Of a DNA stretch of 64,000 nucleotides, positions 10,322 to 52,278 are shown piece by piece (position 1 is the first letter of the stretch; the number at the start of each line of letters is the position of its first letter). Origin of the DNA: Leuconostoc citreum. Lineage in GTDB: Bacteria > Bacillota > Bacilli > Lactobacillales > Lactobacillaceae. The DNA lies in the NCBI RefSeq assembly GCF_004354555.1, contig NZ_PUFH01000004.1, positions 248,001 through 312,000 of the forward strand. Reading direction: 5' to 3'. Under the pieces are notes generated by a model. It was not told where the DNA came from. It did no database searches and saw only the letters and a program-made list of their open reading frames with translations. The translations under genes were made by a program, and so were the position numbers.

Positions 10322-10397
10322 GGAGGATCAGGTATTTAAAACACGTGTGGCACAAACTTCGGTTGTGCCAAATGATAGTGCTAGATACATATAGAAT
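10322..10397 (+). promoter_or_regulatory. Hairpin-separated SD of tatD
   Basis: SD GGAGGA (10322-10327) is 70 nt before the ATG. The intervening RNA folds: GTATTTA (10332-10338) pairs with TAGATAC (10382-10388), and inside it TGGCACAA (10348-10355) pairs with TTGTGCCA (10363-10370), capped by a C-UUCG-G tetraloop. Folded, the SD and ATG are about 13 nt apart. No other SD lies near the ATG. Confidence 0.6.
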
Positions 10398-11195
10398 ATG
10401 GCAATTTATGATTTAACAAAAACACCAGCTGATAGTTACGATACGCATACACATCTCAATGATGACAAATTATATCACGACGTTCCAGCGTATATTGGTC
10501 GTGCTAATGAGTTTCGCGTCATGGAAATGAATATTGTTGGCTATGATGCCACGGGTAACGAGCGTGCATTAGAAATTGCACAAGCGCATGATAATATTTA
10601 TGCTGTACTAGGTTTTCAACCCGAAGATACGGCTGATTTTGATGAAGCTGCAGCATTGTTATTGTCGCATCAACTTGAACAAGAAAAAGTAGTTGGCGTT
10701 GGAGAAACTGGTCTGGATTATTATTGGGATACACCATCACGCGAGATACAAAAAAAAGCTTTCCAGACACATCTCGCTTTAGCTAAAAAATATGACTTAC
10801 CAGTGATTATTCATAATCGCGATGCCTTCAATGACGTTTACGATATAGTGAAGGCAAGTGGTGTCACTAAAGGTGTTATGCACAGCTTTTCTGGGACACC
10901 AGAGCAGGCTTTAGCATTTGTTGACTTAGGCATGCATATTTCCTTTAGTGGAGTGGTCACTTTTAAAAAGGCAGAAGAGGTTCGTGACGCGGCGCGAGCT
11001 GTCCCACTTGACCGTATTTTAGTCGAAACAGATGCCCCTTACTTAGCGCCAACGCCATTTCGTGGTAAAGACAATGAACCTGCACTTGTGAAATATGTTA
11101 TCGATTCCTTAGCCGAAACTTTAGCTGTCACGCCTAAGGCGTTATCAGAAATAACACGAACAAACGCGCATCGTCTATTTTTAAACCATGAGTGA
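10398..11195 (+). CDS. tatD: TatD-family metal-dependent hydrolase (DNase)
   Basis: 265 residues of the TatD amidohydrolase fold. Metal-binding DTHTHLND is near the N terminus (residues 15-22), with GVGETGLDYYW (metal-bridging Glu), IIHNRDA, MHSFSG and the C-terminal ETDAPYLAP. Known TatD enzymes are Mg-dependent 3'-5' exonucleases acting on DNA. It heads the tatD-rnmV-ksgA cluster, the same order as Bacillus yabD-rnmV-ksgA. Its start is preceded only by the hairpin-separated SD. The next gene overlaps its 3' end by 8 nt. Confidence 0.94.
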   Translation: MAIYDLTKTPADSYDTHTHLNDDKLYHDVPAYIGRANEFRVMEMNIVGYDATGNERALEIAQAHDNIYAVLGFQPEDTADFDEAAALLLSHQLEQEKVVGVGETGLDYYWDTPSREIQKKAFQTHLALAKKYDLPVIIHNRDAFNDVYDIVKASGVTKGVMHSFSGTPEQALAFVDLGMHISFSGVVTFKKAEEVRDAARAVPLDRILVETDAPYLAPTPFRGKDNEPALVKYVIDSLAETLAVTPKALSEITRTNAHRLFLNHE

Positions 11196-11751
11196 TAAGC
11201 CGAAAATCAATGAATTTATTGTGGTTGAGGGTCGTTCTGATACGGAAAATTTGGCACGTGCTGTTTTAGCAGACACAATAGAAACTGGTGGCAGTGCTAT
11301 TAATGCTGATGCCATAATCCGTGCACAAGTAGCCGCTAAAACAAGAGGCGTTATCATTTTAACCGATCCTGATTTTAATGGTCAGCGCATTCGGCGTCTT
11401 GTTGCTGAAGCTGTGCCAACTGCTAAACATGCTTATATAACACAAGCACAAGGTCGTGCAGCAAAGGACAATGTGCACAAATCACTCGGTGTCGAGCACG
11501 CAACACCTGACACATTGAGAATGGCATTGTCTCGTGTGATGACACCAAAAAAAACCGTTACAACTGATATTACGCAATATTTTTTACAGGAAAATGGTTT
11601 GCTGAATGGGCCGAATGCACGTCAGTTGCGCCAAAAAATCGGCGAAACATTAAACATCGGTTACACTAACGGCAAACAACTATTAAAACGTGCCCAACAA
11701 TTTGGTTTAACGCGAGATCAAATTTTGACAGCACTAAAAAAGGAAACATAG
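11188..11751 (+). CDS. rnmV: Ribonuclease M5
   Basis: 187 residues with a Toprim domain: VVEGRSDTENLARA (catalytic Glu) and LTDPDFNGQRIRR (DxD-like acidic pair). It cleaves precursor 5S rRNA to the mature form, aided by ribosomal protein L18. It overlaps tatD by 8 nt and is followed 1 nt later by ksgA, so translation is likely coupled. Confidence 0.94.
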   Translation: MSDKPKINEFIVVEGRSDTENLARAVLADTIETGGSAINADAIIRAQVAAKTRGVIILTDPDFNGQRIRRLVAEAVPTAKHAYITQAQGRAAKDNVHKSLGVEHATPDTLRMALSRVMTPKKTVTTDITQYFLQENGLLNGPNARQLRQKIGETLNIGYTNGKQLLKRAQQFGLTRDQILTALKKET

Positions 11752-11752
11752 T

Positions 11753-12640
11753 ATGGCAGATATAATTGATATTGCAAATCCAACACGAACACAGGCTATT
11801 TTAAATCAGTATGGGCTACATGCTAAAAAGAAGTTTGGACAGAATTTTTTAACTGATTTGAACGTACTGCACGGTATTGTTGATGTTGCGGGTATCACGT
11901 CAGAAGATTATGTTATTGAAATTGGCCCAGGCATTGGGGCTTTAACCGAACAACTGGCACGTTCAGCCAAAAAAGTTGTTGCGTTTGAAATTGATCCACA
12001 TATGGTTGCTGTACTAGCCGAAACATTATTACCTTATGATAATGTGAAAGTCATTGAAAACGATATTTTAAAAGTTAACTTGGCTCATGTGATTGCAACT
12101 GAATTTGGTGAAGGGGCACACGTCAAGATTGTGGCCAACTTACCTTATTACATTACAACCCCCATCCTCATGCAATTATTACGAGCCAAAATTTCATGGG
12201 ACAATATTGTGGTTATGATGCAACGTGAAGTTGCTGATCGTTTAAACGCTGAGATAGGAACGAAAGCCTACGGTGTACTCACGTTAACGATTCAATATTA
12301 TGCTCAAGCGCAATTGGCAATTAAAGTGCCGGCAAGTGCTTTTAATCCGTCGCCAAATGTTGATTCAGCAGTGGTGATGTTGACGCCGATTGTTCCAGAA
12401 ACTGTTGTTGATAATCCAGATAAATTATTTTCCGTTGTTAAAGGTAGTTTTGCCCATCGGCGTAAGAGTTTATGGAACAATATGTTGCAAATGTTTGGTA
12501 AACAAGAAGACGTTAAGCAACGGATACAAGACGCTTTGGACTCAGTAAACATTGCCTCATCTATTCGTGCCGAGCGTTTATCTTTGAATCAGTTGACAGC
12601 GCTTTATGAAGCCCTTAAGTTGCAAGGATTGATTAAATAA
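11753..12640 (+). CDS. ksgA: 16S rRNA dimethyladenosine transferase
   Basis: 295 residues; dimethylates two adjacent adenines near the 3' end of 16S rRNA during 30S assembly. SAM-binding motif IEIGPGIGALTEQLA is at about residues 60-74, the catalytic NLPYYITTPI motif is at about 128-137, and FGQNFLTD is near the N terminus. SD AAAGGAAA. It is the last gene of the tatD-rnmV-ksgA operon, and veg follows under its own promoter. Confidence 0.96.
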   Translation: MADIIDIANPTRTQAILNQYGLHAKKKFGQNFLTDLNVLHGIVDVAGITSEDYVIEIGPGIGALTEQLARSAKKVVAFEIDPHMVAVLAETLLPYDNVKVIENDILKVNLAHVIATEFGEGAHVKIVANLPYYITTPILMQLLRAKISWDNIVVMMQREVADRLNAEIGTKAYGVLTLTIQYYAQAQLAIKVPASAFNPSPNVDSAVVMLTPIVPETVVDNPDKLFSVVKGSFAHRRKSLWNNMLQMFGKQEDVKQRIQDALDSVNIASSIRAERLSLNQLTALYEALKLQGLIK

Positions 12641-12683
12641 CCGTATATTATTGCATTTTCTGTTGCCATTATACACTCATCAT

Positions 12684-12712
12684 TTGTGAAAAAAACCTAA
12701 TTATGGTATAAT
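12684..12712 (+). promoter_or_regulatory. Promoter of veg
   Basis: TTGTGA (12684-12689), 17-bp spacer, TATAAT (12707-12712), close to the consensus of the vegetative sigma factor. Confidence 0.8.
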
Positions 12713-12743
12713 AGATTAAGTTTTCACGAAAGGTGGTATAAAA

Positions 12744-12974
12744 ATGCCAAGTAGTTTGCAAGACATCAAGATTAAGTTAGATGCACATGTCGGTGAGGCT
12801 GTCACCGTAGTTGCACAAGCTGGTCGCAAAAAAATAACCGAACGTAGTGGTGTATTACGTTCGACATTCCCCTCGCTGTTTGTGGTTGAGTTAGACGATG
12901 CAAACTTTGAGCGGGCATCATACAGTTATACTGATATATTAACGAATAACATTGATATTACCTTTACCGATTAA
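12744..12974 (+). CDS. veg: Veg family protein
   Basis: 76 residues; matches the Veg (DUF1021) family with LQDIKIKLDAHVGEAVTVVAQAGRKK, RSGVLRSTFPSLFVVELD and a final SYSYTDILT. In Bacillus veg lies downstream of ksgA, as here, and influences biofilm formation; the biochemical role is unclear. It has a strong promoter, a good SD (AAAGGTGG) and its own terminator, so it is a highly expressed single gene. Confidence 0.92.
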   Translation: MPSSLQDIKIKLDAHVGEAVTVVAQAGRKKITERSGVLRSTFPSLFVVELDDANFERASYSYTDILTNNIDITFTD

Positions 12975-12984
12975 TTTTTATTTC

Positions 12985-13003
12985 GCCCGTTAGGGCTTTT
13001 TTT
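12985..13003 (+). terminator. Terminator of veg
   Basis: GCCC-gtta-GGGC followed by seven Ts, just after the veg stop codon. Confidence 0.85.
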
Positions 13004-13026
13004 GTAGGTGAGAGATAACAGCAACC

Positions 13027-13881
13027 ATGAACAGACAAGCAATATACGCTATTTTGACAATTTTATTAATTCCGTTAGGTTTACTGTGGGTATTTGTTTA
13101 TATGACAACAGACACACCAGCCCCAAAACATGTACCAGTAAAAATTGTTACTGATAATGTTGCTTATCAACAAATTGCGGCATCTGTTGCTGGTAAGAGT
13201 GGGCAAGTGACTTTGGTGTCTGCTAATTTACCTACCAAAAATCAGCGTCAGGCCTTTAAATCGGCAGAAATTATCTTAACAGATAGCCATCAAGATCAAT
13301 TACTAACGCAACGCAATAAACAGCAGTTACATTCAAAAATTCTAGTTGCTAGTGATGTTGTCAATGATCAAGGCGCAGGGAACTATTGGTTGAGTCCGGA
13401 AATCATGTTGCGAACGATTAATAGGTTATCAGATTTACTGAGTGACTTCGATCCGCAAAATCGTGACGTCTATATGCATAATAGTCAAAAGCTGTTAGAT
13501 AACCATCAGGCCTTATCGAATGGTATCAATACCTTGAAATCAAAAAATAACGTTCAGTATATTGCGACCAACAATGCGCAACAAATTTTTATGTCGCAAT
13601 TGAATTACCGACGTGTTTTACCAAATGTTGAAACGGCAGACGATAAAGCATTTGACCAAATAAGCCAAGATTTTAAAGCCAAAAAAATAAAATTTATATT
13701 AACGGCACCACAGGATCAGAGTCAAAATGATCAGCGCTTGGTGAAGCTGGCAAAAGATGCTAAAATACCAGTAATTACTTTTAATCAAGTTTTGCCTCAT
13801 GACGAAAATATTTTGGCTTGGCAATTCAATTTTGTAACACAAATAAACAATGCAATTCAGACAATAGAAAGTGGTAAATGA
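13027..13881 (+). CDS. Metal-ABC-type substrate-binding protein with degenerate ligand sites
   Basis: 284 residues in the position and general layout of ZnuA/TroA cluster A-I binding proteins, upstream of a matching ATPase and permease. The N terminus has one hydrophobic segment (residues 5-26) but no lipobox cysteine, so it is probably a membrane-anchored rather than lipid-anchored protein. Expected metal-ligand motifs are altered: NYWLSPEIML stands where active members have PHxWLDP, and IATNNAQQIF where they have a His-containing HDAF motif. Zinc or manganese uptake is therefore only inferred from context. SD AGGTGAG is about 12-14 nt from the ATG. Its TGA overlaps the next gene. Confidence 0.72.
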   Translation: MNRQAIYAILTILLIPLGLLWVFVYMTTDTPAPKHVPVKIVTDNVAYQQIAASVAGKSGQVTLVSANLPTKNQRQAFKSAEIILTDSHQDQLLTQRNKQQLHSKILVASDVVNDQGAGNYWLSPEIMLRTINRLSDLLSDFDPQNRDVYMHNSQKLLDNHQALSNGINTLKSKNNVQYIATNNAQQIFMSQLNYRRVLPNVETADDKAFDQISQDFKAKKIKFILTAPQDQSQNDQRLVKLAKDAKIPVITFNQVLPHDENILAWQFNFVTQINNAIQTIESGK

Positions 13882-14582
13882 TGGCAATTATCCAGACACG
13901 TGATTTTGGTATCCGTTATGGTGAAAAAGCTGTCTTGTCACACGTGAACGTTGACGTGCCGGCAGGACGCTTTTTTGCCTTATTGGGAGAAAATGGGGCA
14001 GGTAAAACAACCTTTATTAAAGCTCTCATTGGTCATAATCAGCAGACCAATGGCTTATTAACCCTTAATGCGAAACGTATTGGTTTCGTACCACAGTTTC
14101 GTGATATTACGAGAGATTACCCATTGAGTATAGCAGAATTTGTGGGATTAAATTATAATAAAGGCTGGCGATTATGGTTTTCTCCCGTCGAGAAACAGCA
14201 GATTGCGGCTGCTTTACAACGTATGGATTTATCTGATATTGCGTCAAAGCGTTTAGGTTTGGCATCTGGTGGTCAGCAGCAACGTGCCTTTGTGGCACAG
14301 GCTTTAGTACAGCAACCCGACCTACTTATTCTTGATGAGTCGACAGCTAGTTTGGATCACGAACATAAAGTGGCGTTATTACAAAATATTAAACAGCTAC
14401 AAAAGGCACAGGATCTTACTGTTTTATTTATTACGCATGAGTTAAAGTTAGTATCACAATATGCTGATGGTTATTTATTATTTGACAATGGTCATGTAAC
14501 GCAAGGTGAAGCAAAAGACCTAGGGGCACTAACGACTAAAATGACAGCACCCTATGATGAGGATGAGGTAAGGCATGTTTAA
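13878..14582 (+). CDS. Metal-type ABC transporter ATP-binding protein
   Basis: 234 residues with Walker A GENGAGKTT, signature LASGGQQQR (a variant of LSGGQ) and Walker B LLILDEST followed by H-loop FITHE. Closest in layout to ZnuC/MntB-type ATPases, which power cluster A-I metal importers. It overlaps the binding-protein stop by 4 nt (ATGA) and the permease by 8 nt, a tightly coupled three-gene operon. Starts at 13878 or 13881 are both possible. Confidence 0.88.
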   Translation: MMAIIQTRDFGIRYGEKAVLSHVNVDVPAGRFFALLGENGAGKTTFIKALIGHNQQTNGLLTLNAKRIGFVPQFRDITRDYPLSIAEFVGLNYNKGWRLWFSPVEKQQIAAALQRMDLSDIASKRLGLASGGQQQRAFVAQALVQQPDLLILDESTASLDHEHKVALLQNIKQLQKAQDLTVLFITHELKLVSQYADGYLLFDNGHVTQGEAKDLGALTTKMTAPYDEDEVRHV

Positions 14583-15366
14583 TTATGATTTTATGCAAAA
14601 TGCATTCATGGCAGGGACTGTTGTTAGCATTGTCGCTGGTATTGTTGGGACATTTGTGGTGGCACGGAACTATGCTTTCTTAACGCATACATTAAGTGAG
14701 ATTGGTTTTGCTGGTGCAGCATTTGCCCTGTTTGCTGGTTGGCCAGCATTGTTGGGGATGATGCTAGCAACTAGTGGTGCTTCAGTGGCTATTGGTGCGC
14801 TCGAATCTGGTTATACCAAGCGCGATAATGTGACTAGTGCAGTCTCAGCTTTAGCCATTGGTTTAGGTATTTTATTTTTAGCTCTTGGACATACAAGTAC
14901 CACAGCTGCAACTGGTATTTTATTTGGTTCAGTATTAGGCATTAGCCGTCAAGATTTGTTGCTGTTACTAGCTTTGGCGCTACTCGTCATTATTGTTTTG
15001 TTTTTTAACTATCGTGCATTGAGGCAACTCTCATTTGATGAAGCTGGTATGTTTTTGCAACATGGGACACAAAAAATGGTTCGTTATATTTTCCTGATTA
15101 TTATTGCCTTGTCAGTTAGTATTTCGTCGCAATTAGTTGGGTCATTATTAATTTTTGTTCTGGTAACTTTACCAGCTGCTAGTGCAAAATATTATGTCAC
15201 TACAACGCCACAATTGATGGGTGTAGCCATTGTCTTTGCGCTATTTGGCACCTGGGTGGGACTAACTTTGGCCTATCTGACGAACTTGCCAACGAGCTTT
15301 TTCATTGCTGTAATTGAAGTGTTGATTTATTTAGTTTCTGTCTGGCAATTTCAAAAAAACGCTTAA
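14575..15366 (+). CDS. ABC-3 family metal-type permease
   Basis: 263 residues, mostly hydrophobic with about eight predicted membrane segments. It shows the ABC-3 permease features FVVARNYAFLTHTLSEIGFAG (ATPase-coupling region) and DEAGMFLQ. It pairs with the ATPase and binding protein upstream. SD GAGGTAAGG is inside the ATPase gene. The substrate is not shown by sequence; zinc or manganese is the family norm. Confidence 0.88.
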   Translation: MFNYDFMQNAFMAGTVVSIVAGIVGTFVVARNYAFLTHTLSEIGFAGAAFALFAGWPALLGMMLATSGASVAIGALESGYTKRDNVTSAVSALAIGLGILFLALGHTSTTAATGILFGSVLGISRQDLLLLLALALLVIIVLFFNYRALRQLSFDEAGMFLQHGTQKMVRYIFLIIIALSVSISSQLVGSLLIFVLVTLPAASAKYYVTTTPQLMGVAIVFALFGTWVGLTLAYLTNLPTSFFIAVIEVLIYLVSVWQFQKNA

Positions 15367-15400
15367 ATACCGAACATTGACGGTGTTTAAGTGCTATAAT
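15366..15400 (+). promoter_or_regulatory. PurBox and promoter of purR
   Basis: AATACCGAACATT (15366-15378) fits the PurBox consensus AWWWCCGAACWWT at every position. It overlaps a -35-like GAACAT (15372-15377), which is 17 bp from the extended -10 TGC-TATAAT (15392-15400). PurR probably controls its own gene. In known cases boxes often come in pairs; I see one. Confidence 0.75.
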
Positions 15401-15423
15401 TAAACTCAAATACTAATACTCAA

Positions 15424-15467
15424 AAAGGAGAAAACGTGCTAATTAACTTTTAGCACGTTAACATATT
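15424..15467 (+). promoter_or_regulatory. Hairpin-separated SD of purR
   Basis: SD AAAGGAG (15424-15430) is 37 nt from the ATG. A perfect 10-bp hairpin, AACGTGCTAA (15433-15442)/TTAGCACGTT (15450-15459), fills the gap, leaving 2 + 8 unpaired nt. A GTG five bases after the SD would open a five-codon frame (MLINF) ending at TAG inside the hairpin, so a leader peptide is an alternative. Confidence 0.65.
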
Positions 15468-16301
15468 ATGAAAACACGTCGTTCCGATCGTCTTGTCGAC
15501 ATGGCGCGCTACATGCTTGAGCGCCCACGCACATTAATTTCATTGTCTTATTTTGCGAAGCGATACGATTCAGCTAAGTCTTCTATTTCTGAAGATTTAT
15601 CTATCCTAAAACGCACATTTCAGGAGCGCGGGACAGGATTAATTGAGACAGTACCTGGCGCAGCTGGCGGTGCGCGTTTTGTACCTTTTATGGCTGAAGA
15701 TGAGGCGAGAGACTTCATTGAACAAATACGCCGAGACGTTAATGACGAAACGCGTGTACTACCTGGTGGGTACGTGTATCTTTCAGATTTATTAGGCCGA
15801 CCTGATATTTTAAGACAAGCTGGGCGACTGATTGCAACCCAGTATTTAAGAGATAACATTGATGCTGTTATGACTGCAGCCACGAAAGGTGTACCTTTGG
15901 CACAAGCAGTTGCTGAACAGTTGAATGTGCCTTTTGTGATTGTTCGTGATGATGCTAAAGTGACTGAGGGACCAACGGTTTCAGTTAATTATCTAACAGG
16001 ATCATCAAAGCGTGTTGAAAAAATGGAGTTATCACGTCGTTCTTTGCGAACAGGCTCTCGTGTATTAGTGGTGGATGATTTCATGAAAGCTGGTGGTACC
16101 ATTCAAGGCATGCAGACGCTTGTGAGTGAGTTTGATGGTACCGTGGTTGGTACCGCTGTTTTTGCTGAAGGACGTTCGGCAACTCGATTGTTAGATCGAT
16201 TCACATCGTTGCTTCATGTTGATACGAATTTGAAAAATGGTGATCCCATTTTGGTGACCGCTGGTAACTATTTGCAAGAAATTTATAAGCACGAGGCCTA
16301 A
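15468..16301 (+). CDS. purR: Purine operon regulator PurR (Bacillus type)
   Basis: 277 residues: an N-terminal winged helix (RRSDRLVDMARYMLERPRT start) joined to a phosphoribosyltransferase-fold domain whose PRPP site VLVVDDFMKAGGTIQGM is at about residues 200-216. In Firmicutes this dimer binds PurBoxes and releases or changes activity on PRPP. A consensus PurBox in its own promoter supports autoregulation. glmU follows 5 nt later, matching the purR-to-glmU neighbourhood of Bacillus. The initiation region has an unusual SD hairpin. Confidence 0.95.
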   Translation: MKTRRSDRLVDMARYMLERPRTLISLSYFAKRYDSAKSSISEDLSILKRTFQERGTGLIETVPGAAGGARFVPFMAEDEARDFIEQIRRDVNDETRVLPGGYVYLSDLLGRPDILRQAGRLIATQYLRDNIDAVMTAATKGVPLAQAVAEQLNVPFVIVRDDAKVTEGPTVSVNYLTGSSKRVEKMELSRRSLRTGSRVLVVDDFMKAGGTIQGMQTLVSEFDGTVVGTAVFAEGRSATRLLDRFTSLLHVDTNLKNGDPILVTAGNYLQEIYKHEA

Positions 16302-16306
16302 TTTTA

Positions 16307-17680: not shown

Positions 17681-17685
17681 TTTTT

Positions 17686-17721: not shown

Positions 17722-17787
17722 ATTATGCAACCGTTAACGTCAGTATTTGTGGTAATATAAAAATACGATATAAGTGAGGATAAAGCA

Positions 17788-18540: not shown

Positions 18541-18546
18541 AGGCTT

Positions 18547-28485: not shown

Positions 28486-28554
28486 GAAAGGATAGTGTGG
28501 CACGGTAACGTGTTTAACAAATAATTAGCATTATTTGTGACGTCACACGCTAAC
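28486..28554 (+). promoter_or_regulatory. Hairpin-separated SD of the second lipid kinase (three-way junction)
   Basis: SD GAAAGGA (28486-28492) is 62 nt before the ATG at 28555. Between them lies a three-way junction: GTGTG (28495-28499)/CACAC (28544-28548), CACG-GTAA-CGTG (28501-28512, a GNRA-type loop) and ACAAATAAT (28517-28525)/ATTATTTGT (28530-28538). Folding leaves 2 + 6 nt between SD and ATG. A separate hairpin ACAGGTAA/TTACCTGT at 28453-28470 is upstream. Confidence 0.65.
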
Positions 28555-29544: not shown

Positions 29545-29574
29545 TGTTTGTAGTGGGTGTCGAAAAACCCAAGA

Positions 29575-29637
29575 AAAGGAGTGTGCGATTAATATCATAC
29601 GATGATGAATTATGTCGTGATGATGAGCACGAATATT
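29575..29637 (+). promoter_or_regulatory. Hairpin-separated SD of rlmD
   Basis: SD AAAGGAG (29575-29581) is 56 nt before the ATG at 29638. GTGC (29583-29586) pairs with GCAC (29627-29630), and inside ATCATACGA (29594-29602) pairs with TCGT-G-ATGAT (29615-29624, one bulge). Folding leaves 1 + 7 nt. A GTG at 29583 also opens a 26-codon frame overlapping the rlmD start out of frame. Confidence 0.6.
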
Positions 29638-31065: not shown

Positions 31066-31101
31066 TTGACAAATATTGGTTAACTCTGTAATATATATTA
31101 G
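31066..31101 (+). promoter_or_regulatory. pyrG promoter with GGGC start site
   Basis: TTGACA (31066-31071), 17-bp spacer, TAATAT (31089-31094), then 6 nt to GGGCTCCC starting at 31101. The initially transcribed GGGC is the hallmark of reiterative-transcription control of pyrG. Confidence 0.82.
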
Positions 31102-31163
31102 GGCTCCCATTAAATGGGACAGACGTTAAAAGCTCCCAAGTATTATACTTGGGAGCTTTTCTA
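31101..31163 (+). promoter_or_regulatory. CTP-sensing reiterative transcription attenuator of pyrG
   Basis: The leader begins GGGCTCCC. A perfect terminator AAAAGCTCCCAAGTA / TACTTGGGAGCTTTT (31128-31160) lies 27 nt downstream. In Bacillus subtilis, low CTP stalls polymerase at the C after GGG, adding extra Gs that pair with the C/U-rich left arm of the terminator and let transcription proceed. All sequence elements are present, so the same mechanism is inferred here. Confidence 0.85.
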
Positions 31164-31214
31164 TTTTTATTTTTACCCCTGAAACGTTGCATGCGCGCAA
31201 GCGCTTAATCATGA

Positions 31215-32843
<1,629 letters not shown>

Positions 32844-34799: not shown

Positions 34800-34870
34800 A
34801 AGGAGAATCGCATCAAACAAGACGCGTCCGATTAGTAACAGCGTGTCGGTTGGTTTGGTGCACTAAAGCT
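34800..34870 (+). promoter_or_regulatory. Hairpin-separated SD of obgE
   Basis: SD AAGGAGA (34800-34806) is 64 nt before the ATG at 34871. GCATCAAAC (34810-34818) pairs with GTTTGGTGC (34853-34861), nine pairs with one G-U. Inside, ACGC/GCGT (34822-34825/34841-34844) and CCGA/TCGG (34828-34831/34846-34849) could form alternatives or a pseudoknot. Folding leaves 3 + 9 nt between SD and ATG. Confidence 0.65.
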
Positions 34871-36340: not shown

Positions 36341-36410
36341 GGAGGAAATGAGTGACACCACGCGATGAGTGAGAGTTATCATTCAAGCGCAGCGCACACT
36401 CCTTAATAAA
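36341..36410 (+). promoter_or_regulatory. Hairpin-separated SD of alsS, with short upstream frame
   Basis: SD GGAGG (36341-36345) is 65 nt before the ATG at 36411. GAGTG (36350-36354) pairs with CACTC (36397-36401), with inner CGC/GCG and ATGA/TCAT pairs, leaving 4 + 9 nt. An ATG only 2 nt after the SD opens a six-codon frame (MSDTTR) ending at 36368, abutting a GTG at 36369 that is in frame with alsS, so reinitiation is an alternative. An extended -10 (TGC-TATGAT) lies upstream. Confidence 0.55.
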
Positions 36411-46300: not shown

Positions 46301-46863
46301 ACACAAAACAGATGAAGCAAAAGATGGGGATACCCACAAATAAAAAAATTGTTTTATATGCTCCGACATGGCGAGTTCGTGGCGAAATCGAATTGCCAAT
46401 TGATTTTGTGCAATTAGAAAAAACTTTAGATAAAGAGCTTTACATGATTATTCACCCGCACTATTGGAATAATGTCAGTAATGTTCCAAAAGCTAATAAT
46501 ATATCATTAGCTAATCAAGATTTTTCAATTGAAGACTATTACTTAGTTTCTGATGTGATGATTACTGATTACTCATCTACGATGTTTGACTATGCATTGC
46601 TTGATAAACCAATGATTTTTTATACTTATGATTATAAAGAATATGTGTCGTCACGTGGGCTGAATTTTGATTTTGAGCATGATGCGCCCGGACCACTAGT
46701 CTACAATCAAAACGAATTATTAGCAGCAATTAATAATTTTGAGGCTATTGAACATCAATATCGTGAAAAAATTGCAAACTTTAAGCATAAGTTTATACAA
46801 TATGATGATGGTCATGCTAGCCAAAAACTTGTTGAAACGGTCTTTAAGGATGATATGGCATGA
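43315..46863 (+). CDS. Large bifunctional wall-polymer synthase: GT2 domain plus CDP-glycerol glycerophosphotransferase domain
   Basis: 1182 residues. The N-terminal GT-A domain (about 25-270) has KLSVVVPMYNVSLFLREALDSL, IDDGSKDATPE and YVDPDDIV (DxD). A middle region of ~450 residues looks beta-rich with no family I can name. The C-terminal part (about 830-1182) is a TagF-like Glyphos_transf domain with IQTMHGTPLKNMG, APTWR and ITDYSSTMFDYALLDKPMIF. It probably adds sugar and polymerises glycerol- or ribitol-phosphate. The adjacent exporter supports a teichoic acid role. It overlaps the next gene by 4 nt (ATGA). Confidence 0.87.
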   Translation: MTEPIIHIPKNHDKPVTIVKKSCRATTKLSVVVPMYNVSLFLREALDSLLRQGVDGGYQVILIDDGSKDATPEIAREYVDNYPEIFELYLFENGGLGSARNRGTNLAEGEFITYVDPDDIVIDFSYRKMLNMIMRTGSDLIGGAVRRFNSTGESWTSYVHHRAYHDTYEATTLAEHPEMVWDSTAWNKIYRLDFILKYSLYFPEKVLYEDMPTVVPMYSLAQKIDIFDEIVYLWRFRDIGAPSITQATGQIKSFTDRVKGMKFILESLKKYDAPRSAQDEQLHKMLDFDLTIPFTYDNYLVLDQDYKDVIYREVKSFLEMLTPQQFNQARFWYRALYTIWLNEPYNLVQQAILTYAKKEFHISFNPKTKQLHSSYQDDFDFELPTFKHDFESRTRLYEVKQEDNVVTLDGHLYYQYLDVNNLDDIGDAEVTFVNKYGETVAPFTGSIVFSEDPNITAYSGFDNTQTKVEAPAHHYQYNHYHIEIPLTDLTALTEPAYIKISQVVHGMSLQAIVTEPLPGDDPRPEGFMVGDDFIVPGYSSDWRLKFTRYPKAPVVVSSRYYNNNYIWQLTHTKAHVALWDDANQRYLPVVRQGQNYTISEADQSFLGEADPNAKRWWQLITTDDLSDVTSYEKIRMSQQQIAAPQSIGANMSIFHVSNHVATLAISWEYPIVKSFSVDDNTAKIQFWLGGWTKTALSAKLTFAADGLSNSYRAKKLTHGFGKRQLWEVSMPLSFGQYRDVALLHPEISIHFLRRDDFTMPLRWGKSVHELLNKTIPMGQLEWLISTDDKEEHRKVVLRQNTNREGFRDMADKVAFWQTDYLEYLKQPLLNNTVVYSSLWGDKFGDNPKAIYDYLQAHTQKFNHVVVLKNIVEEVDLPNTKFISFGTKEYWYYLARAKYFVNNVNFEQDERIKRSSQVEIQTMHGTPLKNMGFNVLNEWNPANYERYLRKNLNWDYLTVPSDYVAEVAQDAYRHQAQVLPTGYPRNDALFSRANSENTKQMKQKMGIPTNKKIVLYAPTWRVRGEIELPIDFVQLEKTLDKELYMIIHPHYWNNVSNVPKANNISLANQDFSIEDYYLVSDVMITDYSSTMFDYALLDKPMIFYTYDYKEYVSSRGLNFDFEHDAPGPLVYNQNELLAAINNFEAIEHQYREKIANFKHKFIQYDDGHASQKLVETVFKDDMA

Positions 46864-48587
46864 AACAAGCGATGAAGAAAATACAATGGTATCAGGCATA
46901 CCCATATTTGATTATATTAGCCATTGCTTTGATTTTTGCCCTACCACAACTTCATAGCAGAGGCATCTATTTAGGGGCAGATACAGCATTTCACTTTAAT
47001 CGTGCTTTTGAATCTATGCAACGGCTCAAGCATTTAAACTTTCATAATATGACGATGTCACTTTATGGTTTCGGTGCAACTGGGCGTATAGTCAATGCTT
47101 TTTACGGACCCGGATTAGGCTATTGTTTCGGTCTTATCTTGTTGATGACACAGGCATGGCTGAAATTTCAATTAATCACTAACTTTATTCTAACGTTTGG
47201 GACAATAGCTTTGAGTTATTGGTTGTTCAATAAGTATTCTAGACAGCCATTTTTGAGTTTGACTGTGGCTACGCTATTATCACTGACAAGTTATTGGGCA
47301 TTAACTTATTGGTACCAAAGTTCGGGAGGAATGCCGTGGGGCATGATGTTCCTGCCATTAGTAATTGATGCCGGTATGCAGATGACTAGTGGGCAAAGGC
47401 AGCTGGTGAAGCCCATAAAGCTTGGAATTACCATGGCCATTATTTTGGAATGTCACATGCTATCGTTTGTTTTTAGTGTCTTCATAATAGCTGCCTTCTT
47501 TATAGTTGCGTTAGTGACTACCAATCAAAAACTTATGCTTGTTAAGCAAATTGCTTTGGCGGGCTTAATCAGTGTTGGTTTAACGCTGGGATATTGGATT
47601 GACTACTTGACAATCATAAAAACACAGCCAATTTTGTCTCCATTTATTTTCACCTCACCTAAAGCATTATCAACGAATCCTTATCAAGGGCTGGCTTTTT
47701 GGTTAATTGTGTTGTCAATAACTTTGCTAGTTGCTTGTGTTAAACAAGTATCAAAGCAACAGTGGTTGTTATTAATTTTTGGATTATTATTTCTATTCAT
47801 TGCCTCGGCACCAGCGATTGTAACAAATCATTGGAATGATATTGCTTTCTTTAAAATTGTGCAGTTCCCAATGCGGTTTACGCTACCTGGTTTATATTTA
47901 CTTAGTTTTTTTGTTATTTTATCGTTGACGCAACTGATCAATACACTAAATTTAAAGAAACAATATCTTTTAGCGATAAGCATTGGACTGTTACTCATCG
48001 GCGGCATGACAATTAAAAATACTTATATTAGTAACGAAAACGCCAACCAAAATTTTTGGCGTCAGGATAATACGTTAGCATCAAAGTTGGTTATTCCAAA
48101 TGATGAATCCAAAGAAGCTAGCCAAATACAGGACTTGTTACAAAAAAGGCAACAACAGTTTGACAAGAGTATGCATGTTGTTAATTTTAGCGCACCGGAT
48201 TATTTGCCCGGCAAAGATGAGGTTTTCTCAAATGATAAACATTATCAAGCTGTTGTCAATAATCTGATTTTACCGAGCCAGTTTAAAAAACGCATAAATA
48301 ATGCTGGGAATCTGGAAATTACTTGGTATCAAGCACATCCGGCTAAGATACAAGTGCCAGCCGTAGCTTACCGACAAACAGTAGCTACCCTGAATGGCAA
48401 ACAAATAATGCCTAAGACCGGGCTGGTGGGCGTGATTGATGTGGTTGGTCGTGAAGGAGAGAATCAACTGATATTGGGCATCAAAACATCTTTGCTACAA
48501 ACAGTAGCGTATGTGAGTCCAATCATTGTAATCGTGATTCTTTTGAGCTATCAAGTTATAAGCATAAGGAAACGTCACAATGAATAA
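46860..48587 (+). CDS. Polytopic membrane protein (PTPS-related/YfhO-like)
   Basis: 575 residues with about 11-13 hydrophobic segments, starting LIILAIALIFALPQLHSRGIYLGADTAFHFNRAFE. The acidic-aromatic loop after the first helix and overall layout resemble the 6-pyruvoyl-tetrahydropterin-synthase-related membrane proteins and YfhO-type GT-C proteins, some of which glycosylate lipoteichoic acid. The activity is not proven. It overlaps the genes on both sides (4 and 8 nt), so it is co-translated within the wall-polymer operon. Confidence 0.75.
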   Translation: MKQAMKKIQWYQAYPYLIILAIALIFALPQLHSRGIYLGADTAFHFNRAFESMQRLKHLNFHNMTMSLYGFGATGRIVNAFYGPGLGYCFGLILLMTQAWLKFQLITNFILTFGTIALSYWLFNKYSRQPFLSLTVATLLSLTSYWALTYWYQSSGGMPWGMMFLPLVIDAGMQMTSGQRQLVKPIKLGITMAIILECHMLSFVFSVFIIAAFFIVALVTTNQKLMLVKQIALAGLISVGLTLGYWIDYLTIIKTQPILSPFIFTSPKALSTNPYQGLAFWLIVLSITLLVACVKQVSKQQWLLLIFGLLFLFIASAPAIVTNHWNDIAFFKIVQFPMRFTLPGLYLLSFFVILSLTQLINTLNLKKQYLLAISIGLLLIGGMTIKNTYISNENANQNFWRQDNTLASKLVIPNDESKEASQIQDLLQKRQQQFDKSMHVVNFSAPDYLPGKDEVFSNDKHYQAVVNNLILPSQFKKRINNAGNLEITWYQAHPAKIQVPAVAYRQTVATLNGKQIMPKTGLVGVIDVVGREGENQLILGIKTSLLQTVAYVSPIIVIVILLSYQVISIRKRHNE

Positions 48588-49638
48588 TAGATACGATGTA
48601 TTAGACATCTTTAAACTAATTGCGGCCATTTTTGTAGTAGGTATTCACATTTGGCCTTTGCCTAACCCAGAGAGTAATATTGTTCTTTTTTTAGGCATTG
48701 GCCGCTTTGCCGTACCATTTTTTCTACTGACATCTGGTTTTTTGGTGCATAAAAAGTTAATGACTTTGCCATCGTTAGCTGAGCGAAAACAGTATACATG
48801 GCACTACCTTAAACGTCTATTTAAGTTTTATCTGGCTTGGTGGTTACTATATCTTTGGCTAATACCATTAGATTGGAGTGGTCATTTTCGTTTCAAAGGT
48901 GAGCATGGATTACGATTGGTATGGTCGTTGTTTAAGAAATATATTCTTAATTTTTTCACAGGTAGCACCTTCCAAGGCTCTTGGTATATTTCAGCAACTA
49001 TCTTGGGCGGAATTATCGTCTTTGTATTACTTAATCGTTTAAATGTGTTATCACAGACTGCGATTGGGACTATTTGGTTGGCAATTTTACTGATTGTCTT
49101 GCTTAAGGGCAAGAATATACCAATGGTTATGACCACGCTTAAGCATATCCCAAATTTTTTGCCAGCTGAGTCTTTCCTAGTGGCTGTACCATTTTTGATT
49201 TTTGGCCGCTTTATTGCTGAATATGAGGGCTTTTTCCGAAGAATACCTATCTTGCTGTTGACTGTGTCAATCATGTTGATTCAACTATTAACTGTTAAAG
49301 AAGTATTTCATTGGCGTGCAGCAGGGACAACATTATCGACTGAGCAATTTATCTTTGTTGATTTATTGGCGGTAAGCGTTTTGTTATTGGCAATCAATGT
49401 CGCTGTCAGACAAATTACTATACCTTGTTCGAACGATATACGTCGTCTCTCTAGCTTTGTTTACATGGGACAATTTGGTTTAATCGTGTTAACAGCAATT
49501 TTACATAATCGCTTCGCTATTAACATGAGTGGTTGGACAAAATTTAGTTTGGTGTTAACTGCCTTAATGTTACTGTTTAGTTTGTCTTATGCTTTACAAA
49601 AGAATACTAGACTTAAGTTGATTAGATATTTATGGTAA
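48580..49638 (+). CDS. Acyltransferase family 3 membrane protein
   Basis: 352 residues with about ten membrane helices. It begins RYDVLDIFKLIAAIFVVGIHIWPL, with the family His in the first helix, then GRFAVPFFLLTSGFLV. Such proteins O-acetylate or O-acylate sugars and wall polymers. Given the operon, the likely substrate is a teichoic acid or cell-surface glycan. SD AAGGAAA lies inside the previous gene. Confidence 0.85.
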   Translation: MNNRYDVLDIFKLIAAIFVVGIHIWPLPNPESNIVLFLGIGRFAVPFFLLTSGFLVHKKLMTLPSLAERKQYTWHYLKRLFKFYLAWWLLYLWLIPLDWSGHFRFKGEHGLRLVWSLFKKYILNFFTGSTFQGSWYISATILGGIIVFVLLNRLNVLSQTAIGTIWLAILLIVLLKGKNIPMVMTTLKHIPNFLPAESFLVAVPFLIFGRFIAEYEGFFRRIPILLLTVSIMLIQLLTVKEVFHWRAAGTTLSTEQFIFVDLLAVSVLLLAINVAVRQITIPCSNDIRRLSSFVYMGQFGLIVLTAILHNRFAINMSGWTKFSLVLTALMLLFSLSYALQKNTRLKLIRYLW

Positions 49639-49670
49639 GCTGTGAGTTAGTGATGTGACACAAGATGGAT

Positions 49671-49699
49671 TTGTAAAACACTGCTGTTTTACGTATAAT
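49671..49699 (+). promoter_or_regulatory. Promoter with embedded operator-like inverted repeat
   Basis: TTGTAA (49671-49676), 17-bp spacer, TATAAT (49694-49699). A perfect 8+4+8 repeat GTAAAACA-ctgc-TGTTTTAC (49673-49692) covers the -35 and spacer, a typical repressor position. It drives the glycosyltransferase at 49732. Confidence 0.7.
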
Positions 49700-49731
49700 T
49701 GAACTACTGAACTTATGAAGGAAATAATCAG

Positions 49732-50709
49732 ATGACTGACAAAACTGTCGCTGCTGCTATTGTGACATACAATCGCTTGCCATTATTGAAAGAATCACTC
49801 GCTGCGGTTTTAGCGCAAACAAATTATTTATCACATGTTATTGTAGTTGATAATTTATCAACTGATGGTACAAAAGAGTATCTGGATAGTTTGCATGATA
49901 GTCGCGTGGTTGTTTATCACGCTGACAAAAATTTAGGTGGTGCTGGGGGCTTTAACCAAGCTGTCCGGTTATTTGGTGAAACTTTAGAAGATGATTATGT
50001 CTGGTTAATGGATGATGATACGATTCCAGAGCCAGATGCTTTAAAACATCTTGTCGAATTTTCAGAATCGCATCCAGAAGCTGGTTTTGTTAACTCACAG
50101 GTGCGTTGGGGTAGTATGACGGGTAATCCTTCTTGGATGAATGTCACGGCGCCACGTGCTTTTACTTGGCAAAGATACCTCACTGATAAGAACCAACCAG
50201 CAATTGAAGTTGTTAATTCAACTTTTGTGTCAGTTATGTTTTCACGTGAGATGGTAGCAATGGTAGGCTTGCCTCAAAAAGAGTACTTTATTTGGGGTGA
50301 TGACATGGAATACACAAATCGTATTGCTGACATCAAACGAGGCTATATGGTTATTAATTCTATTGCTGTGCATAAATCAAAAGAAAACACTAAACCTGGT
50401 GATATAATTGCGGAAAAAGATGCTAGTCGTCTATGGCGTTATGATTATGAGTACCGTAATCGTGTCTTAACGGCACGTCGCATTTCTACCAAAGATATGA
50501 TCAAAACAATTATCGGGGCAGTTATTTATGATTGGCGTCGGACCTTATTAAAGCGAGGCGTTCCTTTCCGAGCTAAGAAACTTGGTATGATTATCCGCGG
50601 TTTATGGCGTGGTTTGTTTTTTAAGCCAACAATTGAGTATGCAGCTGGATTACACCAAACAAAGACCATTAGTTTAAGAGAGTTGGATTTAGAAGAATTA
50701 CTTAACTAA
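49732..50709 (+). CDS. Glycosyltransferase family 2 (galactofuranosyl/rhamnosyl-transferase-like)
   Basis: 325 residues: VAAAIVTYNRLPLLKESLAAVLAQ, IVVDNLSTDGT, NLGGAGGFNQAV and VWLMDDDTIPEPDAL (DDD metal site), then IWGDDMEYTNRI. The NLGGAGGF and DDD combination is typical of GlfT2-like and rhamnosyltransferase GT2 enzymes. No signal peptide or membrane helix. It has its own promoter, unlike the preceding wall-polymer genes. Confidence 0.87.
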   Translation: MTDKTVAAAIVTYNRLPLLKESLAAVLAQTNYLSHVIVVDNLSTDGTKEYLDSLHDSRVVVYHADKNLGGAGGFNQAVRLFGETLEDDYVWLMDDDTIPEPDALKHLVEFSESHPEAGFVNSQVRWGSMTGNPSWMNVTAPRAFTWQRYLTDKNQPAIEVVNSTFVSVMFSREMVAMVGLPQKEYFIWGDDMEYTNRIADIKRGYMVINSIAVHKSKENTKPGDIIAEKDASRLWRYDYEYRNRVLTARRISTKDMIKTIIGAVIYDWRRTLLKRGVPFRAKKLGMIIRGLWRGLFFKPTIEYAAGLHQTKTISLRELDLEELLN

Positions 50710-50742
50710 AAAAGTTGTCACTTTCAAAGTGACAACTTTTTT
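50708..50742. terminator. Bidirectional terminator carrying AAAGTGACAACTT repeats
   Basis: Two 17-nt arms (AAAAAAGTTGTCACTTT and complement) around one C, between convergent genes. The inner 13-mer AAAGTGACAACTT is identical to the half-site next to busR/opuA at 55552-55564. Confidence 0.88.
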
Positions 50743-51241
50743 AATTTGCAATAAATTCATGGGCTAAAATACCCATCATCATACTATCGTGATACTTACC
50801 TTCAGCGAAAAAATGACCCCGTAAGACACCTTCTTGAGTGAAACCAACTTTTTTATAAATATGAATAGCAGCAGCGTTGTCAACGTCAACATACAGGTAA
50901 ACTTTGTGCATGTTCAAAACTTTAAAGGCATATTCAATGCCCGCTTTGATAGCTGATTGAGCGTAACCATGTCCCTGGTGGTCTGGATGGATGATAACTT
51001 GTATTTCAGTATGGCGATGTAACCCATCAATATACATTAATTCAACCACACCAATAAATTGGTCCTTATCTTCAACGACAAAACGTCGTTCTGTCTGATC
51101 TAATACATGTCGTTCGTACAACAACTGTAACTCATCAAACGACGTGTATGCTTCCTGAAACCAAAGTGCCATCACTTTACGGGAATTTTCTTGTTGATAA
51201 ATATAAGGTAAATCTCTTTTTTCTAGTGGCCTAATTTTCAT
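50741..51241 (-). CDS. GNAT acetyltransferase, SpeG-like
   Basis: 166 residues with the GNAT acetyl-CoA loop HPDHQGHGYAQSAI (variant of QxxGxG/A) and the C-terminal VDVDNAAAIHIYKKVGFTQEGVLRGHFF. Its layout resembles spermidine/diamine N-acetyltransferase SpeG, but the substrate is not certain. The start MKIRPLEKRDL at 51241 has SD AAAGGA; the longer frame adds seven residues before it. It follows thyA by 36 nt on the same strand and is probably co-transcribed. Confidence 0.86.
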   Translation of the reverse strand: MKIRPLEKRDLPYIYQQENSRKVMALWFQEAYTSFDELQLLYERHVLDQTERRFVVEDKDQFIGVVELMYIDGLHRHTEIQVIIHPDHQGHGYAQSAIKAGIEYAFKVLNMHKVYLYVDVDNAAAIHIYKKVGFTQEGVLRGHFFAEGKYHDSMMMGILAHEFIAN

Positions 51242-51277
51242 TTCTAATCCTTTCGACAACATGATCTATTAAGATTA

Positions 51278-52237
51278 TTATACCGCAACAGGCGCTTTAA
51301 TCGCAGGCTCACTTTCATAATCGAGCACCTTGATGTCATCCATTGTATAGTCAAATAGTGACTTGACTTCAGGATTCAGCCATAGCTTTGGCAAATGGTG
51401 CATTGGACGAGAGAGTTGTTCGGTGATTTGTTCAATATGGTTATTATAAATGTGCGTGTCACCAATCGTATGGATAAAATCGCCAACTTCATAGCCAGTC
51501 TGCGCGGCAACCATATGTAGCAGAAGAGAATATGATGCTATGTTGAATGGCACACCCAAGAAGAAGTCACCAGAGCGTTGGTATAATTGCAGGCTAAGCT
51601 TGCCATCAGCAACATAAAATTGACTGAGCACATGGCATGACGGTAATGGCGCTTGTGGTGTTGTTTCGGCATTCCAGGCAGTTAATATAAGGCGACGTGA
51701 ATCAGGTGTTGCCTTAATTTGATTCACTAGGCGATTAACTTGATCAATGGCGTTTTCACCAGATATTGTTTCCCAGCCGCGCCAAAGCTTACCGTAGACA
51801 TCGCCGATATAACCAAACTTCTCCATAAAATCATCATCATTGAGAATATTGTCCACGAAAATAGCTTTTTGTGCTTGATAAGCTGCAGCAAAATCAGCAT
51901 CTTCTTGTGCACGATGGCTGAAGTTCGTCATATCAGGACCAGAATATTCTTCTGAAGATACCCAATTTTTAAAAGCCCATTCATCCCAAATGTGATTGTT
52001 GTGTTGGAGTAAAAATCGAATATTATTATCACCCCTTAAAAACCAAAGCAATTCTGACTTTATCAGTCCAAAAAAAACTTTTTTTGTGGTGAGTAGGGGA
52101 AAACCCTCTTGCAGATTGAAACGCATTTGTGATCCGAATAAAGAATGCGTGCCAGTACCAGTGCGGTCGCCCTTGAGGTGACCTTCATCTAGTATTTTTT
52201 GTGCTAAGTCGAGGTATTGTTGTTCGTTTTTTGACAT
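51278..52237 (-). CDS. thyA: Thymidylate synthase
   Basis: 319 residues, the longer Lactobacillus-type enzyme with an insert compared with the 264-residue E. coli form. Shows [18 protein letters not shown], the active-site [12 protein letters not shown] (catalytic Cys) and [17 protein letters not shown]. It converts dUMP to dTMP using methylene-THF; the folate enzyme folD and dCMP deaminase lie nearby. Its start has no adjacent SD; the SD lies 34 nt away beyond a hairpin. Confidence 0.96.
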
Positions 52238-52278
52238 GATTATATTATGTCGTGTTCATAGAACACGGTTATCCTTTC
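52238..52278 (-). promoter_or_regulatory. Hairpin-separated SD and possible leader peptide of thyA
   Basis: SD GAAAGGA (52278-52272) is 34 nt before the ATG at 52237. CGTGTTC (52267-52261) and GAACACG (52257-52251) form a 7-bp stem with a 3-nt loop. A GTG five bases after the SD opens an eight-codon frame (MFYEHDII) whose TAA ends two bases before the thyA ATG, so translational coupling from a leader peptide is at least as plausible as looping. Confidence 0.6.

Follow-up and report, generated by a model that had tools for sequence, protein, structure and literature searches.

Seven genes in the 64,000-nucleotide stretch of Leuconostoc citreum DNA analyzed here (the window) share one leader layout. 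At tatD, purR, dgkB, rlmD, obgE, alsS, and thyA, the sole good Shine–Dalgarno sequence (SD) lies 34–71 nt 5′ of the conserved AUG, with the intervening gap closed by a stem (Table 1). An earlier note on this DNA had claimed a far SD and a gap-closing stem at each of these genes. All seven leaders match that description, and their SD–AUG spacings differ by at most 1 nt from those it gave. The 5′ foot of the stem falls 0–5 nt past the SD, and the 3′ foot falls 6–13 nt ahead of the AUG. The start codons are consistent with NCBIfam family alignments, in which, for example, the ObgE profile starts at residue 28 of the 34790 open reading frame (ORF), which is codon 34871. Among the 56 ORFs scanned in the window, these seven genes carry no ordinary SD that is nearer to the start, except for a chance one ahead of an internal rlmD GTG.

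Table 1. Leaders and stems of the seven genes (window positions; tail, nucleotides between the 3′ foot and the AUG)
Feature	Position	Strand	SD and AUG	SD end to AUG (nt)	Details
tatD leader	10322..10397	+	SD GGAGG 10322-10326; AUG 10398	71	9-nt tail
tatD closing stem	10332-10338 / 10382-10388	+			GTATTTA / TAGATAC; encloses inner hairpin with CUUCGG loop
purR leader	15425..15467	+	SD AAGGAG 15425-15430; AUG 15468	37	8-nt tail
purR stem	15433-15442 / 15450-15459	+			10 bp
dgkB leader	28487..28554	+	SD AAAGGAT 28487-28493; AUG 28555	61	three-way junction
dgkB closing stem	28495-28499 / 28544-28548	+			GTGTG / CACAC
dgkB first inner hairpin	28501-28512	+			CACG-GTAA-CGTG
dgkB second inner hairpin	28517-28538	+			ACAAATAAT-TAGC-ATTATTTGT
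rlmD leader	29574..29637	+	SD AAAAGGAG 29574-29581; AUG 29638	56	6-nt tail
rlmD closing stem	29582-29586 / 29627-29631	+			TGTGC / GCACG; encloses inner hairpin; closing probability 1.0
obgE leader	34800..34870	+	SD AAGGAG 34800-34805; AUG 34871	65	9-nt tail
obgE closing stem	34810-34818 / 34853-34861	+			9 bp; GCATCAAAC / GTTTGGTGC
alsS leader	36341..36410	+	SD GGAGG 36341-36345; AUG 36411	65	9-nt tail
alsS closing stem	36350-36354 / 36397-36401	+			GAGTG / CACTC; closing probability 0.99
thyA leader	52238..52277	-	SD AAAGGA 52277-52272; AUG 52237	34	13-nt tail
thyA hairpin	52267-52251	-			7 bp; CGTGTTC-TAT-GAACACG; closing probability 0.99

Whole-leader folding energy was dropped as a test. 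Its z-scores range from −0.07 (rlmD) to −4.6 (purR) over six leaders, thyA not among them, and most leaders are unremarkable. It is the position of the closing stem, not its strength, that carries the informative signal. The tatD leader, for example, closes with a probability of 0.92–0.94, compared with 0.18 for shuffles. An unbiased scan of the 56 window ORFs recovered tatD, purR, rlmD, obgE, alsS, and thyA and yielded no other convincing case beyond these known genes. The scan missed dgkB. In this genome the computed closing stem of dgkB (closing probability 0.10) gains two pairs and reaches 2 nt before the AUG, so the leader fails the tail rule for a bridged call, which places the 3′ foot 4–16 nt from the AUG.

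The earlier note had also proposed a chromosome-wide set and had named a lack of enrichment over shuffled leaders as a refuting result; enrichment was found. In the 1.21 of 1.84 Mb scanned, the layout occurs at 29 of 1,177 genes of this genome. These counts come from later scans that leave out genes having an ordinary SD; a first, loose scan (92 hits) was replaced because it held many false pairs within coding sequence. The total of 29 genes is an incomplete count that also includes false hits: the filters lose true cases (the window's tatD, dgkB, and alsS are absent), and about eight of 33 pairs are expected by chance. Specifically, 33 of 75 SD–AUG pairs in the 1.21 Mb of this genome (G000) are bridged, versus 8.1 expected from dinucleotide shuffles. 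The corresponding values are 17 of 29 versus 3.3 expected in genome G004 and 7 of 22 versus 2.1 in genome G018. Eight sets of permuted motifs also scored lower, with 12–25 bridged among 73–138 pairs, compared with 33 of 74 for the SD itself. Among enterococci, streptococci, and their kin the layout was found at none of 365 genes, and none of six pairs is bridged (0.5 expected). Bacillaceae and Listeria have 2 of 31 pairs bridged versus 3.6 expected, and hence no excess. The antiSD is normal.

Across 19 Leuconostoc genomes, the layout is kept while the insert between SD and AUG is replaced. At obgE, AAGGAG is present in all 19 leaders, and the inserts range from 41 to 124 nt. All 19 close (mean probability 0.985, shuffles 0.16), and their stems terminate 6–12 nt ahead of the AUG. 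The median identity of these inserts is 0.48, versus 0.46 for shuffled inserts, and they form nine families at a 60% cut-off. Insert identity is 0.47 versus 0.44 shuffled for tatD and 0.56 versus 0.51 for rlmD; coding identity for the three genes is 0.85–0.88 (0.88 for obgE). The purR layout is likewise found in all 19 genomes. Its inserts belong to a single family (identity 0.67 versus 0.49 shuffled) with no outright replacement, which counts against the reading preferred below. In sister genera, purR keeps the layout with different stems (closing probability 0.98–1.0; 10 leaders folded), and in dgkB of other species the second hairpin differs but the three-way plan is retained.

For the six genes other than obgE, which was counted separately, 110 leaders have an ATG at the aligned start. 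A far SD (31–126 nt) is carried by 84 of them and a near SD by 7, and 19 have no SD of at least 5 nt. When closing is called at a probability above 0.5, 77 of the 84 far-SD leaders close (mean 0.90, shuffles 0.24), and 12 of 15 long dgkB leaders score at least 0.93. The seven that do not close are dgkB of G000, G006, and G010, tatD of G010 and G011, and alsS and thyA of G012. The dgkB leaders of G006 and G010 favor other folds (closing probability 0.10 and 0.07), and in both tatD leaders the rule picked a nearer AAAGGA over a GGAGG 6 nt upstream. The alsS leader of G012, whose weak AAGGA lies at 125 nt, was kept within the 84. The thyA leaders of G002 and G005 were dropped because the extracted position is not a start codon (match near contig end), and G003 gave no match for alsS or thyA. 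The computed folds thus close the gap (0.90–0.985 versus 0.16–0.24 for shuffles), which supports the hairpin-bridged spacing proposed earlier.

Could the pattern arise by chance, given that AU-rich leaders fold readily and SD-like words often occur at a distance? The shuffled expectation for G000 implies that some of the bridged calls are false. However, G000 exceeds shuffles fourfold and G004 fivefold, the closing probability of orthologue leaders is 0.90–0.99 versus 0.16–0.24 for shuffles, and the two outside groups of bacteria have no excess. Chance as the main explanation is already refuted, and we assign it almost no weight.

The note had called for compensatory changes in relatives, and structure is indeed conserved among them with covariation. 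In equal-length groups, changes at paired positions comprise 19 compensatory, 64 one-sided, and 76 broken cases, versus 1.5, 23.7, and 95, respectively, in a slid control. A single purR group accounts for 52 of the 76 broken pairs. Two formal tests of covariation within purR alignments were not significant under shuffling (103/500 for nine sequences, 179/500 for three). The nine-sequence set is ungapped and leaves out G001, whose 3′ arm is offset by a single base. MAFFT alignments spanning both purR clades displaced the 3′ arm by one base and were excluded from the counts.

The inserts might instead be mobile or copied hairpin elements that landed between SD and AUG and are bypassed. At tatD, dgkB, and alsS the presence or absence of an insert at the same site is lineage-specific, and the dgkB insert of G001 contains a perfect, young-looking 25-bp inverted repeat. 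However, when 40 inserts from 32 genes were searched against 1.21 of 1.84 Mb, each had a full match solely at its own place, and only three had extra matches, of 16–32 nt. The G001 repeat, its own other arm aside, matches no further site in that genome over more than 29 bases. No insert therefore has a second full copy in the 1.21 Mb, so the inserts are not a copied element, and we consider a mobile origin very unlikely. Together with the compensatory changes, this result bears out the view that selection acts on structure and that the stems were not copied.

The positions of the stem feet were compiled over 102 leaders (83 from the six genes and 19 from obgE, with SD rules slightly different from those of the 84-leader set). 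The 5′ foot is 2–4 nt from the SD in 70 of 102, the 3′ foot is 8–10 nt from the AUG in 67, and the unpaired spacing is 10–15 nt in 77. This spacing exceeds the ordinary one (the peak for AAGGAG in this genome is 7 nt), which counts against the reading preferred below. Also counting against it, the mean unpaired probability in wider context over the 102 leaders is 0.58 (SD) and 0.43 (AUG). Among 95 distinct inserts, G is scarce in the nine nucleotides ahead of the AUG (0–9% per position). A terminator reading was checked and set aside; TTTT occurs within the last 14 nt of 8 of these 95 inserts.

The far SD might also serve a short upstream frame, with the main gene reached by re-initiation or coupling and the hairpin a by-product or part of an attenuator. 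The alsS SD lies 2 nt ahead of an ATG that opens a six-codon frame, and an ATG or GTG is found 4–12 nt past the SD in 53 of 102 leaders, versus 25.1 expected from shuffles. In contrast, ATG alone is found there in 11 leaders versus 16.7 expected, and 43 have no ATG, GTG, or TTG at this distance in any frame. The presence of a start codon near the SD differs inside every gene (10/19 for obgE, 3/9 for rlmD), so that no upstream start codon is conserved at a working distance, and a GTG may be present because it naturally forms the 5′ side of a stem foot of the type GTG..CAC. Furthermore, translating an upstream frame would melt the conserved stem. The rival, which the earlier note had raised itself, is thus weakened although the excess of ATG or GTG stands, and we judge it quite improbable in general, though it may apply at single genes such as alsS. 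An in-frame ATG, GTG, or TTG 4–12 nt past the SD and open to the gene occurs in just 1 of 102 leaders. This count argues indirectly against initiation at a start codon adjoining the SD, and it was the basis for rejecting an N-terminal extension.

These observations are probably best explained by split ribosome binding sites, used lineage-wide and operating in the manner of T4 genes 38 and 25. At about two dozen ordinary genes here, and at the same genes in relatives, a hairpin seems to join the far SD and the start. Computation directly shows the anatomy of the leaders, that this anatomy is conserved and exceeds controls, and that it is concentrated in a single clade. From these we infer that ribosomes use the far SD by way of the folded hairpin, which would stay folded during initiation, with translation depending on it. 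In such a mechanism, the 30S subunit would pair with the SD, which would be followed by two to four nucleotides (A in most cases at the first two). Next, a hairpin or branched helix would project from the mRNA, and about nine A/U-rich, G-poor nucleotides would then reach the AUG in the P site. Folding would convert a linear gap of ∼30–125 nt into an unpaired spacing of ∼10–15 nt. Judging by where the 3′ foot falls, the helix would lie outside the mRNA exit channel, next to the SD–antiSD duplex. The stem would be kept by compensatory change or replaced outright; if selection is on closing of the loop alone, then the insert sequence is free to turn over. In Leuconostoc and its nearest relatives, the SD–start gap would thus tolerate folded RNA and in many genes seemingly require it.

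Each hairpin might further be a condition-dependent switch that is on when folded and off when melted (for example, on in the cold), or one controlled by a protein able to bind or cleave double-stranded RNA. Fold-dependent spacing is switchable by construction, and insert energies span −52.9 to −6.0 kcal/mol (median −15.5; 95 distinct inserts). However, visual inspection of the protein starts points to a mixture of housekeeping functions, and the stems have no common sequence. In addition, none of the seven leaders matches a known riboswitch or cis-regulatory RNA family in Rfam at the gathering score; an Rfam search of the window returned only a SAM riboswitch (400–503) and one tRNA. Such switching appears unlikely.

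To our knowledge, the only other cases of a far SD bridged by a hairpin are single phage genes. In translational bypassing, ribosomes pass folded mRNA inserts, at T4 gene 60 and the yeast mitochondrial byps, but those inserts lie within reading frames and are passed in elongation, whereas the Leuconostoc inserts precede the start codon. Standby structures are located upstream of the SD, whereas the Leuconostoc stems are placed between SD and AUG, and their foot distances vary little. At the structured standby sites described in PMC3936740, mRNA structure close to the ribosome binding site influences initiation with no protein regulator involved. For T4, PMC3014915 describes structures that shorten the SD–AUG gap from 22 to 5 nt (gene 38) and from 27 to 11 nt (gene 25); destabilizing mutations reduce initiation, and the gene 25 arrangement is given as limited to close T-even phages. 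What the T4 sites, so described, have in common with Leuconostoc is an over-long SD–AUG gap that is shortened by intervening RNA structure. Unlike these single phage genes with short inserts, the Leuconostoc set comprises some two dozen chromosomal genes, has inserts of up to ∼125 nt and three-way junctions, is present clade-wide, and has had its insert sequence replaced at one and the same site. A literature search, largely of open-access papers and without bioRxiv preprints, found no paper describing the Leuconostoc layout.

If split sites operate as proposed, then this clade departs from the linear SD-spacing rule at a set of genes and follows a folded rule. Searches restricted to near SDs would class such genes as lacking an SD or may misplace their starts. 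More tentatively, at somewhat below an even chance, the whole lineage may have a distinct class of ribosome binding site, in which RNA folding sets start choice at dozens of housekeeping genes. The spacer would then be a free slot in which any structured RNA of up to ∼125 nt can arise and be replaced, and each gene would be a fold-on switch that evolution or temperature can set. Sequence that turns over while the geometry stays constant would be a clean example of RNA shape being under selection.

The same leaders also provide natural experiments, in that species differ at one and the same gene, some having a near SD and others bridged sites that vary in sequence. The size of structure that the initiating ribosome tolerates, its required position, and the costs or gains of folding stability are therefore directly testable. 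At rlmD, 10 of 19 species have no SD of at least 5 nt, and the gene is presumably translated without one in those species. Elsewhere in Leuconostoc, a near SD is found at tatD in two species (5 nt) and at dgkB in four (14–15 nt).

The earlier note had claimed that at seven genes of the window (tatD, purR, dgkB, rlmD, obgE, alsS, and thyA) a hairpin separates a distant SD from the AUG. This layout is borne out. The only good SD in these leaders lies 34–71 nt upstream of the AUG assigned by family alignment, and a stem resides within the gap. A scan of 56 window ORFs recovered such a closed gap at every one of these genes except dgkB, which was missed because its closing stem reaches to 2 nt before the AUG in the computed fold. 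The scan found no ordinary SD at tatD, purR, obgE, alsS, or thyA, and the sole ordinary SD at rlmD is a chance one preceding an internal GTG. Genes with an ordinary SD account for three additional pairs (two at 31224, one at 56863), and alsS carries a second bridged pair with an upstream GTG as start. The alsS insert, which is the RNA between SD and AUG, also contains two short overlapping frames (see table), and ATGAGYG beginnings like theirs are seen in several relatives.

The same note had proposed a comparison with shuffled controls, and enrichment is observed. The window genome, G000, comprises 1.84 Mb in 10 contigs, of which 1.21 Mb was scanned for far SD–AUG pairs only in genes lacking an ordinary SD. 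Among 75 such pairs, 33 are bridged compared with 8.1 expected, corresponding to 29 of 1,177 genes. In 0.4-Mb samples of two other Leuconostoc genomes, both containing stretches picked to include some of the seven genes, bridging occurs in 17 of 29 pairs (3.3 expected; 15 of 386 genes; G004) and in 7 of 22 pairs (2.1 expected; 7 of 400 genes; G018). Eight permuted-motif controls gave 12–25 bridged among 73–138 pairs versus 33 of 74 for the true SD. Under a different filter, an earlier scan had counted 12 bridged among 23 pairs both in 451 kb of the window contig (2.5 expected) and at ten other Leuconostoc loci around obgE (2.4 expected); for other Bacilli the count was 1 of 22 (1.8 expected). 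Judged by eye from protein starts, with family alignment covering only part of the set, the bridged genes resemble MutL, Ffh, ObgE, RlmD, Era, RbgA, RecR, PyrR, CarA, AccD, FabZ, Tgt, PepF, and others.

Orthologous leaders from G000 and 18 further Leuconostoc genomes reveal that the layout persists while the insert is replaced. At obgE, AAGGAG is kept in all 19 genomes, 41–124 nt from the AUG, and every insert has a closing stem with its 5′ foot 3–5 nt past the SD and its 3′ foot 6–12 nt short of the AUG. The mean closing probability is 0.985 versus 0.161 for shuffled inserts. The median insert identity between species (0.48) is close to that of shuffled inserts (0.46), whereas identity over the first 120 bases of coding sequence is 0.88. 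These inserts form nine families at a 60% cut-off, although short foot sequences such as GCGC are common to several. At the remaining six genes, an ATG stands at the aligned position in 110 leaders, and their SD is far in 84, near in 7, and absent (no match of at least 5 nt) in 19. Most of the far-SD leaders (77 of 84) close at a probability >0.5, with a mean of 0.90 compared with 0.24 for shuffles. Turnover is gene-dependent: inserts fall into seven families for tatD, five for thyA, three each for dgkB, rlmD, and alsS, and one for purR (identity 0.67 versus 0.49 shuffled). Near SDs occur at tatD in G002 and G016 (GGAGG, 5 nt) and at dgkB in four species (14–15 nt). Since the same gene has a near SD in some Leuconostoc, these sites are gained or lost.

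Two individual cases are also recorded. The rlmD leaders of 10 of the 19 species (L196–L201 and L203–L206) have no SD of at least 5 nt and share a similar stretch before the AUG, approximately GTGCGTRTCAAAAGGCGC followed by AGAAAG. The dgkB leader of G001 (L180) holds a perfect 25-bp inverted repeat with a 3-nt loop within its insert (−52.9 kcal/mol), and no second copy of the repeat was found in that genome.

The geometry of 102 leaders is narrowly distributed. The 5′ foot is 2–4 nt from the SD in 70, the 3′ foot is 8–10 nt from the AUG in 67 (peak at 9), and the unpaired spacing is 10–15 nt in 77. The nine nucleotides preceding the AUG are A/U-rich, with G at 0–9% per position. Ordinary AAGGAG sites of G000 have a spacing peak of 7 nt, and the extra unpaired nucleotides may be the price of bridging the helix base.

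Covariation in relatives, which the earlier note had put forward as a check, is evident in pair changes and does not reach significance in formal tests on purR. Over sequence pairs in equal-length insert groups, stem-pair changes include 19 compensatory ones, 64 tolerated one-sided ones, and 76 that break the pair, versus 1.5, 23.7, and 95 when the partner is slid by 1–3 columns; these counts ignore shared ancestry, and one purR group gives 52 of the 76 breaks. Clear examples are rlmD, where ACGGTGTAC/GTATGCCGT in G007 corresponds to ACGACGTAC/GTACGTCGT in G005 and G004, and the second dgkB hairpin, whose sequence differs between G000 and G005. For nine purR sequences, 92.6% of cells are paired, against 18–49% after sliding, but the result is not significant by shuffling (103/500). 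Three purR sequences of genus g2 are 100% paired, again without significance against shuffles (179/500).

Of 151 genomes in the family, 144 have a purR match, and 138 of these lie outside Leuconostoc. Among the best-scoring 24 of these 138, an SD-like word followed by a stem, with 25–45 nt to the AUG, is present in the single g8 genome, two genomes each of g7 and g39, and five of the six g2 genomes; no start could be assigned in the sixth g2 genome (G019). The word reads AGGGGG in g39 and in one genome of g2, and AGGAGG elsewhere. All ten leaders close with probabilities of 0.98–1.0 (mononucleotide shuffles, 0.25–0.47). Genera g8, g2, and g7 probably represent the L. fallax group, Fructobacillus, and Convivina, respectively, as judged by similarity. 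In the same 24, every g19 genome (five) and every g29 genome (four) has an ordinary SD at 4–7 nt, as do three g18 genomes out of four. The purR matches of both g7 genomes (L325 and L326, from G063 and G024) each contain one TAG, which may be only a match running beyond the gene end. The obgE SD lies at 41–124 nt in 10 of 10 named Leuconostoc, L. fallax included, and in Fructobacillus at 23–25 nt in 4 of 11 and at 9–12 nt in the other 7. Because the purR and obgE leaders agree, the layout seems to have arisen on the Leuconostoc–Fructobacillus side of the family.

Controls from 70 non-Leuconostoc loci, up to 21 kb around obgE, gave few bridged genes. Fructobacillus has 4 of 214 (4 of 9 pairs; 1.6 expected), all obgE with inserts of 22–24 nt, and Convivina plus a relative has 1 of 59. 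Among 365 genes of enterococci, streptococci, and their kin none is bridged. The counts are 2 of 608 for Bacillaceae with Listeria (2 of 31 pairs; 3.6 expected) and 1 of 199 for lactobacilli with Periweissella (1 of 3 pairs; 0.2 expected).

The best-supported explanation is a split ribosome binding site, wherein folding of the insert would bring SD and AUG together as in T4 genes 38 and 25. On this reading the insert would fold in the cell, and translation would start at the AUG and depend on the stem. According to the review PMC3014915, structure shortens the gap from 22 to 5 nt in gene 38 and from 27 to 11 nt in gene 25, destabilizing mutations reduce initiation, and the gene 25 arrangement is present in close T-even phages and absent from more distant ones. 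Given this precedent, we class the layout with a known mechanism. As far as searches of open-licence full texts show, the new points are its use at a gene set on bacterial chromosomes, how large and branched its inserts are, and the exchange of insert sequences while the geometry stays nearly constant. G000 carries an ordinary anti-SD (GGATCACCTCCTTTCT, at two sites), so an altered one plays no part. Short upstream frames, the rival offered in the earlier note, may account for the far SD at single genes, but such frames are not conserved in general. In-frame N-terminal extension was tested and does not explain the far SD; likewise, mobile copies, sought in the 1.21 Mb of G000, and terminators do not explain the inserts, nor do known RNA families explain the leaders.

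RNA elements and insert frames in the window (window coordinates)
Feature	Position	Strand	Remarks
SAM riboswitch	400–503	+	RF00162, 49.4 bits; upstream of gene starting near 571–601
GGGCTCCC, then terminator-like hairpin	31100–31175	+	leader of gene at 31224
alsS insert	36348–36406	+	frames of 6 codons from 36348 and 13 codons from 36365

The gene at 31224 has a start that by eye resembles CTP synthase PyrG, and its leader presumably resembles the pyrG attenuator of other Firmicutes.
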